Shown here one piece after another: positions 25,129 to 29,025 of a stretch of 39,710 nt of DNA; position 1 is the stretch's first letter, and each line of letters opens with the position of its first letter. Made by a program: the position numbers and the translations under genes. The stretch is from a virus: IMG/VR virus record IMGVR_UViG_3300001798_000012, positions 1-39,710 of that record, one strand, 5' to 3'. The notes under the pieces were generated by a model. That model was not told where the DNA came from, made no database searches, and saw only the letters and a list, made by a program, of their open reading frames with translations.

Positions 25129-26247
25129 TTAACTATTGGCAAAATCCGGAATCCAAGCTTCCCAAAATATCGTATTTCCGTTTGCACCAACGAGTACAGA
25201 AGAGGTGAATGAAACACCTGCCCCTGCTCCGATGATCAAACCTTGACGTGTATTATTGGCAAACGCTCCACTAATTCCAGGACCGCCTACGATGGAAACT
25301 CCACCGGAGGAAGTTGGGAACTGAGGAGATGGATACAGGACACTGCCGCTATACGCTGGACCACCGCTATTGATATCGCCCACAGCCACAACTTGAGGGA
25401 AATTCAGGCCAGGAACACTTGCAACCGTCTGGTTGCTGTTAAAGGCTGTATATCCTGTCGAGTTAATGCTGCATACGAATATCGTGTTGCTAGTCACAGA
25501 AGTTACATATCCATAGATCGGAGATCCAGGGATCGTTGTGTTAGGAAGCGAATTCAATTGGGTTGTACCCCAAAGAGACGGAATCCTAAATGCAATTTCT
25601 TGACCAACTACGTAGTTGTGGTTAGCTGTTGTTGTAACAGTAGTTGTCGTACCTGTTGTAATAGCGCTGATGTAATTCACACCAGGCTCGTACAGATCAG
25701 GATACAACACCTTTTTCACGTAAGCACCAGATGGAGATGCACTCAAAGCAGTATAATTGCTTTGGTTGGTATTCCAAATGATCGTGAATGTGGTAGCGCC
25801 TGTCACAGTAATCACAAAAGGAATTGTACAAATCTGAGGCATACCAGTTGTTGAAGACTGATATAGCCCTTGGAAAATGACAGTATCCCCTGTGGAATAG
25901 CCGTGATTAGACGCTGTTGTGACAACAGCCGGACTTGCTTTTGTAATCCCAGATATCTGAATTTGCGCACCATACTGCAAGGCAAGCCCTGCACTAAATG
26001 TGCTAAATCCAGCTGAGGTCACTATATCCGTAGACAAGACAGGAGTTGCATTGAACACTTGTTGCACTGCATATCCTTGCCCCATCGAGACATCCCAATA
26101 AGCAAAAGGCACACCATTCTGCGCAGGAGTGCCAGCGGCTGTATAGTTTGTCAATCTAGCGTTTGTAGGCTGGAATGGCAAATACAGCGACTTAGCAGCG
26201 CCTGTTGAAGTAAAACTTCCCTTAGCAAATCTTGAATACTCAGCCAT
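25129..26247 (-). CDS. Virion protein downstream of capsid (372 aa)
   Basis: Ser/Thr/Gly-rich beta protein with two similar domains: ASNHGYSTGDTVIFQGLYQ ... TFTIIWNTNQSNYTAL and ANHNYVVGQEIAFRIPSLWG ... FVCSINSTGYTAF. The NHGY/NHNY-x-GD/GQ motif marks each. The C-terminus is GGPGISGAFANNTRQGLIIGAGAGVSF. The position immediately after the major capsid gene and the strong expression context suggest a head decoration or fibre protein. Its ATG overlaps the capsid stop by 1 nt. Confidence 0.6.
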   Translation of the reverse strand: MAEYSRFAKGSFTSTGAAKSLYLPFQPTNARLTNYTAAGTPAQNGVPFAYWDVSMGQGYAVQQVFNATPVLSTDIVTSAGFSTFSAGLALQYGAQIQISGITKASPAVVTTASNHGYSTGDTVIFQGLYQSSTTGMPQICTIPFVITVTGATTFTIIWNTNQSNYTALSASPSGAYVKKVLYPDLYEPGVNYISAITTGTTTTVTTTANHNYVVGQEIAFRIPSLWGTTQLNSLPNTTIPGSPIYGYVTSVTSNTIFVCSINSTGYTAFNSNQTVASVPGLNFPQVVAVGDINSGGPAYSGSVLYPSPQFPTSSGGVSIVGGPGISGAFANNTRQGLIIGAGAGVSFTSSVLVGANGNTIFWEAWIPDFANS

Positions 26248-28168
26248 TATACACCTCCATTATTACCAGCTCTTGTGCAGAGCAGGTTTCGGATAGCTGT
26301 ATCTTGAGTAATCAATTGGCTCTGGGGGAACCGTACCGCAAGCGTAGCATTTTGCATCAGCATGCCTGAATACTCAGGGCCTCTATACAGAAGCTGCATA
26401 GAATCCCCATCTTGACTGATATGCGTTACAGCCTGTTTACCGCAAACAGTGTTGTAATACACATCTCGGCTAGCTGCTGATGCACTTCTAGCCACTGGCG
26501 CTTCAGAGCTTGTCAAGATACGTGTGTTAAACACATTTCCGTACTCAGAATATAGAGCACTAATAGTGCTACTATAATTCATGACTGACAAGAATCCTGC
26601 GCCTGTTAGTCCATCAAAATCAGGCTGTAGCTCTGTAGAGCTAAGCATGAAATAGGATGGGCGTATTGGGCCTGTACCGAACTTCAACGAGCCTTCTTCA
26701 CCTGCGATAAATTTCATCGCATTATTAGTGTCAAGGGTCGATGCCACCAACGAGAAGTCAGAGACTCCTAGGTTGCTTGGATTGTCGCCATTGTTCCCAC
26801 CGCCTGCATAGATATCCGAACTAGCGGATACTACGTAGTCGCGGAGGATAAGCATTCTGTTACCCCACCTTTCGGCGTGGATAGGTCATTTCTGCCTACC
26901 TCTCGGATTTCATCTATAGTCCGAGTTCAGAGCACCGCATCTCCTTTTACAGAGTCCAACCGCTTGCTGCGTTCAGGCTGCACACTTTCGCTGCTTGCCC
27001 CTTGTTGCCCCATCGGGTTTCCAAGTTAAAAATTAAATACGCCCATGACTATAATAATTGTCTTCAATTTTATACATCATAGAACTGCACATATATGGCT
27101 TCACAAGATAAATGAAGTTTTTTTTAGATTCTTTTTTACTTATGCAAACAGTAGGTCCCTTTCTATCATATATTCTAGCTTCTACACCATAAACCAAAAG
27201 CTTTTCTAATAACAAAGAAAGACTTTCTTTGTCAAAGTCATTGGTAGAGATACAAAATTGATGAATATACGGATGTACTTCATAATAGATAATACCTGAT
27301 TTAAGCTTCATTTTGTCTTTTTTTATAACGGCTTTATGACCGTCATCTTGAAACAAAAATGCAATGGTTCTTTCATCAAATAATTCTATTAATTCTGGGC
27401 AAAGTGTTTTTTTTCCATTTTTATAAAGCACTTCTCTTACTCTTTTTATTTCTGAGCTTCTTCCTGTCATTGCATAACAAACATGAAATCCCTTATCTAT
27501 CCTTTCCCTAAAAATACATTCAATTCCATTTTCCCTTAAGTAATTCATCTTAAAATGAACATACTCTTTTTGTTTTATAGAATGATGCATTCTTAATAAA
27601 CAATTTGCATTCTCGGTTTTTGGTTTTGATATATACCCGTCACCCAAACTTAAATCTAGGATAGCTTTATTTAACATTCATATATCTTACCTTATATGGG
27701 CTTTTAATTCCATCAGGTTAGATTTATCGAGGACATTATCTCTATCCTCGGCTTGGCGCATCGACATGGCAAGTCTTTCACTCACCCATGCTAACACCAT
27801 TTGCGCCAAACTAAGAGGGCGTGTTATGCTGATATTTTTGACGTAAGTCCTTTACCCTCTTGATCTTGTAAAAGTACCTGCCAGTTAATTATACATCCTG
27901 TACCAAACCAAGCCATTTCAGCGTCAAGTATATCACGCTGAGGAACTTGCGCCGGAGGATCTATGCCACTGTTACCTAATTGCACAGTCGGGGGCTGCAA
28001 CGCTCTTGGACGCATAAAGCGACAAGTCGTACCACCACCCACTGGCATATTTACCGTATCAGCAATGAGGCGATAATTCATCGTTGGTGTCGGCGTATAT
28101 AGATACGCAGGCGCCAGCGATTGTAGAATCATCGGTCCTAGATTGCTTGTTGTTGTAATGCCTGACAT
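26247..28168 (-). CDS. Major capsid protein, N4-gp56 family, three exons (324 aa)
   Basis: Exon 1a 28168-27854 (105 codons, MSGITTTSNLGPM ... NWQVLLQDQEG), exon 1b 27797-27744 (18 codons, VLAWVSERLAMSMRQAED), exon 2 26852-26250 (201 codons, LILRDYVVSASSDIYAGGG ... RNLLCTRAGNNGGV) with stop to 26247. Joined they give one in-frame HK97-fold capsid protein of the N4-gp56 family: TPTPTMNYRLIADT, GNSGIDPPAQ, the QDQxxVLA ... MR-x-x-ED-x-x-LRD block, NNGDNPSN, GTGPIRPSYF, EYGNVF, and CGKQAVTHISQDG all fit. Unspliced RNA would give only a 114-residue fragment ending at TAA inside the first insertion. The scaffold gene precedes it. Confidence 0.9.
26853..27743 (-). ncRNA. Group I intron in the capsid gene (intron B)
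   Basis: The 5' splice site follows U in CGAGGAU (exon, 27750-27744); the internal guide GUCCUCG (27734-27728) pairs with it over 7 bp ending in the required U.G wobble. The adjacent GAUAA (27740-27736) pairs with UUAUC of exon 2 (P10). The intron ends ...AACAGAAUG with a terminal G, as group I introns do. GCCCAU and AUGGGC flank the endonuclease gene and can pair, placing it in a peripheral loop. The region 26853-27032 is GC-rich and structured, but I did not resolve P3-P8. Excision makes the frame continuous. Confidence 0.85.
27033..27677 (-). CDS. LAGLIDADG homing endonuclease in intron B (214 aa)
   Basis: Two LAGLIDADG-type motifs: ILDLSLGDGYI (residues 6-16, D13) and TIAFLFQDDGHKA (104-116, D111/D112), giving a monomeric two-motif enzyme of the LAGLIDADG DNA endonuclease family. 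Basic, Lys-rich and more AT-rich than neighbouring late genes, as expected for a free-moving intron gene. Wholly inside the capsid-gene intron; it has its own ATG. It would cut intronless capsid alleles at the exon 1b/exon 2 junction and spread the intron. It could also act as a maturase. Confidence 0.9.
   Translation of the reverse strand: MLNKAILDLSLGDGYISKPKTENANCLLRMHHSIKQKEYVHFKMNYLRENGIECIFRERIDKGFHVCYAMTGRSSEIKRVREVLYKNGKKTLCPELIELFDERTIAFLFQDDGHKAVIKKDKMKLKSGIIYYEVHPYIHQFCISTNDFDKESLSLLLEKLLVYGVEARIYDRKGPTVCISKKESKKNFIYLVKPYMCSSMMYKIEDNYYSHGRI
27798..27853 (-). other. 56-nt core-less group I-like insertion (intron A)
   Basis: Splits the capsid frame between QDQEG and VLAW and brings an in-frame stop. 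Its ends obey group I rules: exon ends in U, insertion ends in G (CAAAUG, compare CAGAAUG of intron B). GCCCUCUU (27820-27813) pairs with exon AAGAGGGU over 8 bp ending in U.G (P1). UAACAC (27826-27821), directly 5' of it, pairs perfectly with GUGUUA, the first six bases of exon 1b (P10). Only 15 nt follow the guide, so no catalytic core is present. It is probably an intron remnant; a core would have to act in trans. Confidence 0.75.
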
Positions 28169-28170
28169 GA

Positions 28171-28245
28171 TTAACCTGTGTTAACCATTAATCCCTTGAA
28201 TCTAGAGTCTGCCGTAACGCCGGCTGCGATAGACACCAAACTCAA
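28171..28245 (-). CDS. Possible small leader peptide before the capsid gene (24 aa)
   Basis: TTG 28245 preceded by GAGGG, reading SLVSIAAGVTADSRFKGLMV and ending TAA three nt before the capsid ATG. The same frame is open further back (RIRPFAEGRTY) to a TGA, without a standard start. The sequence looks protein-like and its stop abuts the capsid start, so it may be a leader whose translation feeds the capsid gene, which otherwise has a poor ribosome binding site. Confidence 0.35.
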   Translation of the reverse strand: MSLVSIAAGVTADSRFKGLMVNTG

Positions 28246-28255
28246 GTATGTTCTA

Positions 28256-28345
28256 CCCTCTGCGAAAGGGCGAATACGTCAGTAGTGACGAGCTACAATA
28301 CGTCATGGCTTGACGAGAGCCGATACGTCAGTCCTTAACGTGGAC
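28256..28345 (-). repeat. Four-hairpin array upstream of the capsid gene
   Basis: In mRNA sense: GUCC-ACGUUAA-GGAC (28345-28331), GGCU-CUCGUCA-AGCC (28321-28307), GUAG-CUCGUCA-CUAC (28296-28282), CCCU-UUCGCAG-AGGG (28270-28256). Each is a 4-bp stem with a 7-nt loop; starts are 24, 25 and 26 nt apart. UGACGUAU follows each of the first three. The stems differ while pairing is kept, and two loops are identical, so structure rather than sequence seems conserved. Loop CGUCA is complementary to linker UGACG. Located between the scaffold stop and capsid start. Confidence 0.75.
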
Positions 28346-28359
28346 AATCCGCTAGATCT

Positions 28360-29025
28360 TTACGTTCTTCTACCTTTTATCAAAGACTGCATCTTTTCCC
28401 AAGCAGCTTTTTGCCCAGCTGGAGAGAAGTCCCCTTTTTGTCCTTGATAAGCCGGAGTGCTAAAGGAGGAAGGCTGAAAAGGAGTTTGTCTATTTCTATC
28501 GATCGTCTCTTGGATGGATGAGCCTTTAGGTTCTTCTTTCCTGCCTATACCCATCTCTTTCATTGTTTGATATAGGAGCTTTTGACGACCGAATCCCTCA
28601 GGTACGTTTTCCAAAATGTTTTCCGCGATGCCAGGATATTTCTCAGCGAATTTTTGGATGTTTTCTGCCGACATGACATTGTTAAAATCGGAATTGGACT
28701 TGAAGAAAGTGCTCTGTCTCTCTTGTTCTATCATAGCACGGGCACGAGCTTCCGCTTTCTGATCGATCTTCTTTTCTAGATTCGCCTCGAATTTAGATAG
28801 AGTCTTAGAGAGCACTCTTTTATCAATGTATGACTGATCATCGTCGTCCTCTTCTTCCTCGGGAGCTTTGGACTTCTCATAGGCAGCAGCTCTTTGTTCA
28901 GCTTGCAATCTCGCATTTCTCTCAGCTTCCAAGTCGCGTTCGTATTTTGCTTGCATAGCTCTGAAGTTAAGCTCTTTTTCGCTGATTTGTGGTTGATTTT
29001 CTGCATTTTGAGCTGGTACTGTCAT
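28360..29025 (-). CDS. Scaffold protein (221 aa)
   Basis: Start at ATG 29025 (MTVPAQNAENQPQ) after GGGAT; the longer frame would have no ribosome binding site. Typical scaffold composition: Glu/Gln/Ala-rich coiled coil (RDLEAERNARLQAEQRAAAYEK), an acidic run EEEEDDDD near residues 55-63, a second coiled coil, then a Gly/Pro/Gln-rich, basic C-terminus (KAAWEKMQSLIKGRR) that would bind the coat. Directly upstream of the capsid gene, as in P22- and N4-like phages. No protease motif. Confidence 0.8.
   Translation of the reverse strand: MTVPAQNAENQPQISEKELNFRAMQAKYERDLEAERNARLQAEQRAAAYEKSKAPEEEEDDDDQSYIDKRVLSKTLSKFEANLEKKIDQKAEARARAMIEQERQSTFFKSNSDFNNVMSAENIQKFAEKYPGIAENILENVPEGFGRQKLLYQTMKEMGIGRKEEPKGSSIQETIDRNRQTPFQPSSFSTPAYQGQKGDFSPAGQKAAWEKMQSLIKGRRT

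Follow-up and report, generated by a model that had tools for sequence, protein, structure and literature searches.

The 56-nt insert that interrupts the major capsid gene of this phage is very probably a non-autonomous intron, here called mini-intron A, which would be removed from the capsid mRNA by the catalytic core of the next intron, intron B, through group I chemistry. We base this proposal on comparison of the window, a 39,710-nt stretch of IMG/VR virus record IMGVR_UViG_3300001798_000012, with the capsid genes of related phages. Insert ends that are exact to the base, helices P1, P10 and X supported by covariation, the lack of a core in the insert and a core-bearing intron behind every insert of its kind all emerge from that comparison; catalysis by the core of intron B, its action in cis and the order of removal, A before B, are what we infer from it.

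The capsid gene lies on the minus strand of the window, behind a non-coding leader of about 190 nt (28169–28360) in which three copies of a TGACGTAT motif were seen. Exon 1 (27854–28168) holds 105 codons, matches uninterrupted relatives (~77–85% identity) up to 27854, and closes there with the residues QDQEG and the nucleotides …GATCAAGAGGGT. The reading frame is intact to …CAAGATCAAGAGGGT (27854) and is then broken for 56 nt by mini-intron A (27798–27853), whose last base, at 27798, is G. Micro-exon 2 (27744–27797; 54 nt, VLAWVSERLAMSMRQAED) begins with GTGTTAGCATGG at 27797, and at its end intron B, a group I intron of 891 nt that ends …GGUAACAGAAUG, breaks the frame again. Exon 3 (26247–26852) starts LILRDY and belongs to PHROG 1357, major head protein. 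A preliminary description of this DNA had placed intron B 54 nt downstream; intron B does follow exon 2, the 54 nt being the length of that exon and intron B itself occupying 27743–26853.

When exon 3 and the whole capsid protein were used as queries, a large family of related phages was recovered in IMG/VR, together with a few contigs from bacterial MAGs, and the annotated phage records searched yielded no protein match. At least 70 relatives have an uninterrupted capsid gene that reads straight from QDQEG into VLAW at the site of mini-intron A. In these intronless genes the QDQEG-VLAW and QAED-LILRDY joins fall at exactly the splice bases of the window, which makes the 56 nt an insertion with exact ends. 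The frame break after QDQEG, the resumption at VLAW 56 nt later and the stop between them had been reported from the window's own letters, and agree to the base with the intronless relatives; none of the relatives carries the extra residues that translation of the 56 nt in frame would add. Read-through from exon 1 into mini-intron A gives KGLTSKISA followed by a stop at 27826–27824. The possibility that a one-base frameshift explains the insert (KGLTSKI/SITRPLSLAQM) was ruled out, since no relative has these residues.

Mini-intron A contains an internal guide at 27813–27826 (minus strand). Its first part, UAACAC (27826–27821), pairs with the start of exon 2 to form P10 (GUGUUA/UAACAC, 6 bp), and its second part, GCCCUCUU (27820–27813), pairs with the last 8 nt of exon 1, AAGAGGGU (27861–27854), to form P1 (AAGAGGGU/GCCCUCUU, 8 bp) with a terminal U.G. 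The guide, both helices and the final G are all present as they had been described. Between the guide and the 3′ splice site lies a further strand, GUUUGGCGCA (27802–27811), which pairs with UGCGCCAAGC near the end of micro-exon 2 (27760–27751) to give helix X; this helix has 10 bp in the window and joins mini-intron A to intron B, since the exon strand of intron B's P1, CGAGGAU, follows directly. The minimum free energy fold of the RNA from 27870 to 27744 (minus strand) contains P1 and the 10-bp helix X, with z = −2.7 and none of 200 shuffles as stable.

To map such inserts in the related genes, we wrote a splice aligner that fits an intronless protein to genomic DNA and allows introns in any phase. 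Capsid genes of this phage family contain up to six inserts, which fall into two size classes, minis of 32–75 nt and full introns from about 190 nt upwards; virtually all have U before the 5′ end and G as the last base. The minis occur at four capsid sites, codons 89.0, 92.2 (within the codon), 105.0 (the site in the window) and 115.0, and gapped DNA pattern scans added at least about ten further mini-bearing genes. At site 105 other relatives carry minis of 33–56 nt, an element of 325 nt or elements of 946–987 nt, both of the longer forms bearing an ORF. In the 946–987-nt elements (L025 and others) the loop of P1 holds a LAGLIDADG ORF; in the 325-nt element of L022 it holds an ORF of 74 aa. 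The product of this last ORF (L022, 5426–5650) has a hydrophobic N-terminal stretch followed by a charged part, is without a Pfam match, and stands in place of a homing endonuclease. For the ORF-bearing inserts the guide was chosen by the joint score of P1 and P10, not by P1 alone. Two long inserts were dropped as candidates for the class, one of 1505 nt at site 105 in L028, which has its own core by the model described below, and one of 1262 nt at site 91 in L572, which has core-like 3′ sequence.

All 51 tabulated minis have the U.G at the 5′ splice site, and each has its own guide. With the pairing register fixed relative to the splice sites, changes in the exons, mostly synonymous, are matched in the guide. 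At site 89, position +3 of P10 occurs as UA (9), GC (3), AU (4) and CG (2), that is, as all four Watson–Crick types, and position −4 of P1 as CG (13) and UA (5). Position −2 of P1 at site 92 is AU in 11 cases and GC in 2. At site 105, P10 position +3 is GC (11) or AU (6) and position +4 is UA (16) or CG (1), and P10 among the relatives takes the forms GUGUUA/UAACAC, GUAUUA/UAAUAC and GUACUU/GAGUAC; at site 115, P1 position −7 is UA, AU and GC in three sequences. If guides are exchanged between phages at the same site, pairing drops wherever the exons vary. The architecture thus recurs in about 50 distinct mini-introns at four capsid sites with compensatory changes, which excludes chance, and on these alignments mini-intron A is a member of a class of mini-introns and not a single oddity. 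All cases are capsid genes of one phage family, so the lineages are not fully independent.

Cores were sought with a covariance model, R1, built from an alignment of the cores of 26 short full introns of relatives. In this alignment pairing reaches 97.7% over P3, P4, P5, P6, P8 and the pseudoknotted P7, double changes occur at 23 of the 29 pairs, and 0 of 500 shuffles were comparable. R1 finds the core of intron B (P4–P8 with P7; 26925–27039, minus strand) at 62.8 bits (E = 7e-14), the 5′ strand of P3 lying upstream of an inserted ORF; this is the only match in the window and its phage contig, and in the 1.95-Mb assembly. Neither an R1 match nor core motifs were found in the 56 nt of mini-intron A, in agreement with the earlier remark that no catalytic core fits there. 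Over 54 other loci R1 likewise had no match in any mini, nor in 11 scanned ORF-bearing elements of the mini-intron A type (up to 987 nt), and no P7-like element was seen in minis down to 32 nt.

Intron B has the features of a group I intron, namely P1 (exon strand CGAGGAU, 27750–27744, with guide GUCCUCG, 27734–27728, minus strand), a P3–P8 core with P7, and omega-G at its end, while P10 was not evident for it in the window. The ORF inserted between its P3 and P4 (27033–27677, minus strand) encodes a LAGLIDADG homing endonuclease (Pfam PF03161, E = 8e-16). In the interval 27033–27720 (minus strand) this ORF is flanked by the complementary sequences AAUUAAAAGCCC and GGGCGUAUUUAAUU, which may serve to keep the core intact. 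Introns at the site of intron B, codon 123, are common in the relatives and include versions of 204–205 nt that have no ORF. A search with Rfam of the window and ten intron-bearing loci gave nothing at the gathering threshold except two tRNAs, and in the stretches tried Intron_gpI was absent even when E = 10 was allowed, though the core is canonical. Phages of this kind probably have group I introns that are under-annotated. Matches to tRNA near the capsid region were seen in L030 (2739–2813) and L024 (3151–3247).

Every mini whose downstream sequence is known is followed within 100 nt by a full intron (87/87; 89 minis were mapped without deduplication, and two at contig ends were set aside). 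The association covers eleven pairs of sites: minis at 89 precede cores at 97, 99, 102 or 121, those at 92 precede cores at 99, 121 or 123, those at 105 precede cores at 117, 121 or 123, and those at 115 precede cores at 123. Genes with two minis (L024, L045, L518, L534 and L539) have two cores, mini and core alternating; the two pairs of L534 are short, at 35/274 and 33/204 nt. Among 51 distinct downstream introns, both halves of the core were recognised by motif in 44, R1 matches were obtained for 6 of the other 7, and in L325 the motifs were found by eye; R1 misses some introns that are split by an ORF, so that the cores there rest on sequence motifs. Full introns also occur in genes without any mini (L524 and L567 at 121.0, L572 at 123.0), and their presence at sites that are usually coupled suggests that the core intron can live alone.

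It is helix X that ties each mini to the core behind it. The tail of each mini, from the guide to the 3′ splice site, complements the last bases of the micro-exon that follows, as far as the P1 of the next intron. Helix X was located by best pairing, with shuffles, swaps and permutations as controls. For 51 distinct minis the summed score of helix X was 992.5, against 502.8 ± 16.1 for shuffled tails, and in 46 of the 51 it exceeded the mini's own 95th percentile. Mini tails scored 19.5 against the matched exon and 10.0 against exons that belong to different downstream sites. When the comparison was confined to one downstream site, so that the register is the same, 365 of 405 positions were paired in matched strands (0.901), compared with 0.828 ± 0.009 when strands were exchanged. 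The synonymous exon position −13 upstream of the site-123 core appears in helix X as CG, AU, UA and GC, and the minis at codon 92 differ in their X strand with the position of the next core (99, 121 or 123). In 36 of 51 minis 0–1 nt separates helix X from the P1 of the next intron, and in most the link to the P1 of the mini is 1–4 nt. The helix is weak in a few minis (5 bp in L329 and L539), and in L003, L514 and L508 free choice gave an X that was off register, a shorter helix near the 5′ site being present as well.

These arrangements suggest how one core might serve two introns. Mini-intron A would carry only the parts that address a core, which are the guide (P1 with its U.G, and P10), the omega-G and the tail that forms X. 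In the full introns of the family the guide leads through a short UAAA joiner to P3, without a P2; helix X, stacked directly on the P1 of intron B, may take the place of P2 and set the P1 of mini-intron A within 1–4 nt of what would be the P1/P2 junction. The P1 of mini-intron A would then dock in the core in place of that of intron B, the two P1 helices taking turns in one active site. Guanosine would attack at the 5′ site of mini-intron A, after exon 1, and exon 1 would in turn attack behind the omega-G of mini-intron A, held by P10, whereupon mini-intron A would leave. Its removal would destroy helix X, the P1 of intron B could dock, and the same core would splice itself out. Since X uses exon 2 sequence beside the P1 of intron B, removal of mini-intron A must precede the splicing of intron B on this scheme; the reverse order would strand mini-intron A, because the core leaves with intron B. 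The possibility raised in the preliminary description, that a core outside the small piece, for instance intron B's, removes it, is one that the alignments support, in that a core intron follows every mini and X ties the mini to it.

The core most likely acts within its own transcript, in cis through the tether helix, to judge from these pairings, rather than as a free ribozyme. Removal in trans by free, already excised intron RNA, from intron B or another intron, is improbable. P1 and P10 lie wholly on the mini and its exons, so that a core could act in trans, and engineered spliceozymes do as much for introns of about 100 nt (PMC6155759). However, action in trans needs no neighbouring core intron, whereas one lies directly downstream of 87 of 87 minis, nor does it need a helix that pairs with the exon beside the P1 of the next intron and whose identity depends on that intron.

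A second alternative would join exon 1 straight to exon 3, using the guide of mini-intron A and the 3′ site of intron B, so that exon 2 is skipped and mini-intron A belongs to an alternative 5′ splice site from which a single long intron starts. Helix X would then be a P2-like stem closing off exon 2. This is very unlikely, as P10, in which the guide pairs with the first bases of exon 2, shows covariation at each of the four sites, which places the 3′ site of the minis under selection, and as the 18 residues encoded by exon 2 hardly vary among intronless capsids. The covariation of P10 with exon 2 argues instead that mini-intron A's own 3′ site is used and that exon 2 is kept.

Equally little probability attaches to the mini being an autonomous minimal ribozyme whose active site is completed by 3′ exon sequence, as has been proposed for the small rDNA introns of Phialophora. 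These PaSSU introns, of 63–75 nt, have P1, P10 and an intron-to-3′-exon helix, PM, are reported to end in omega-U and are claimed to have a P7; splicing in vitro is reported with long exon sequence, and was inefficient or failed without it, and other parts of the locus may help (PMC3160393). They are the nearest natural parallel to the phage minis, being tiny, with P1, P10 and a pairing of the middle of the intron with the 3′ exon, but they lie in fungal rRNA, have one origin and mainly one site, and no linked core intron has been reported for them. The phage minis lie in capsid genes at four sites, end in omega-G and always adjoin a core intron; the helix that they form with the exon reaches to, or close to, the P1 of that core-bearing intron in every case, and no P7 is evident in minis down to 32 nt. 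The small fungal introns deserve re-examination for linked cores.

Ribosomal bypass of the 56 nt, as in phage T4 gene 60 or the mitochondrial byp elements, can hardly be credited: the 50-nt size class, the in-frame stop and the hairpin would suit it, but the take-off codon GGU does not match the codon before landing (AUG/UUG), the inserts at site 92.2 split a codon (AU before the insert, A after it) that only RNA joining rebuilds, P10 and X covary across the splice sites, and the inserts reach 987 nt with an internal ORF. Decay of an intron in a dead capsid gene, which the preliminary description had entertained, or a sequencing or assembly error in a continuous frame, has scarcely any likelihood either; a single frame change does open read-through across the insert, but no relative translates extra residues, the rest of the capsid protein is intact, and the same kind of coreless insert, ORF-bearing versions included, is conserved in dozens of contigs from different metagenomes at several sites with covarying P1, P10 and X.

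A further property of these introns concerns the protein made when splicing fails. The first stop in the exon-frame read-through is preceded by AA, mostly (L)AA, in 47 of 53 minis; of 63 full introns located past codon 40 for which no upstream mini was recorded, 55 have AA before the stop. The corresponding counts are 0 of 23 for introns near the N-terminus, 1 of 380 for reads in other frames, and 5 of 51 for full introns that come immediately after a mini, where translation has already been ended by the mini. The AA tails are encoded by twelve different synonymous codon pairs, and the preceding residue is mostly Leu. They occur in L037, L030, L572, L513 and other mapped loci. The tail of mini-intron A itself, …ISA, departs from the strict (L)AA ending that marks the class, and its sister in L513, which has the same start as the window, reads KGLTSKMAA and so ends in MAA. 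The phage tails match ssrA tags (…ALAA) in their …LAA ending and recur in most introns of the capsid gene; a tmRNA in the same assembly encodes VNEQEDNLLMAA, and may not belong to the host of the phage. The tails are likely to serve the removal of truncated capsid made from unspliced RNA, and they suggest that an intron can deal with failures of its own splicing through the protein that results. In yeast HAC1 an intron-encoded C-terminal tail likewise marks the product of the unspliced message for destruction (PMC5114014), although the HAC1 intron is not a group I intron and the phage tails are ssrA-like.

A self-splicing intron is generally expected to bring its own catalyst, and coreless introns whose core is supplied elsewhere are represented by group III introns and by group II fragments that act in trans, with group II chemistry and in organelles. 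To our knowledge, no natural group I core has been shown to excise a second, separate intron, an arrangement known only from engineered ribozymes. That several introns came to share one catalytic core has been proposed as a step in the origin of the spliceosome, but for group I we know of no such case in nature. Our search of the open-licence literature found no report of a natural group I core removing a separate intron, consistent with the earlier suggestion that a mini-intron excised in trans in nature would be new. Autonomous group I introns, such as those of phage capsid genes, share with the minis the U.G, the guide, P1, P10, omega-G and homing-endonuclease ORFs, but possess a P3–P9 core, whereas mini-intron A is without P3–P8 and adds the conserved helix X; intron B is an ordinary member of the group. 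As mini-intron A has no core of its own, it is not filed as an autonomous group I intron, and would work like one with a borrowed core. In engineered trans-excision ribozymes and spliceozymes, a group I core takes out a separate segment and ligates the sequences on either side of it (PMC6155759); there the guide is in the ribozyme, whereas in the phage minis it is in the segment to be excised, with a tether helix to the core. Twin-ribozyme introns (PMC4167309) resemble the phage locus in having two linked group I-type elements in one gene, but place two ribozymes in one intron, where the phage locus has one core and two introns.

In conclusion, phages probably possess a natural class of non-autonomous group I introns: coreless minis, some with their own homing endonuclease, for which a conserved tether lets the ribozyme of the following intron carry out excision, one core serving two introns in order. 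To this the introns would add ssrA-like tails by which truncated capsid is cleared. Metagenomic capsid genes may accordingly look broken though they are intact, and ribozymes meant to cut out chosen segments have in the minis a template from nature. If the proposal is correct, these introns would have kept only an address (P1, P10, omega-G and tether) while sharing the catalyst of a neighbour; they would show a core becoming common property, would be the counterpart in nature of laboratory spliceozymes, and would mark a step in the direction of a spliceosome-like division of labour.
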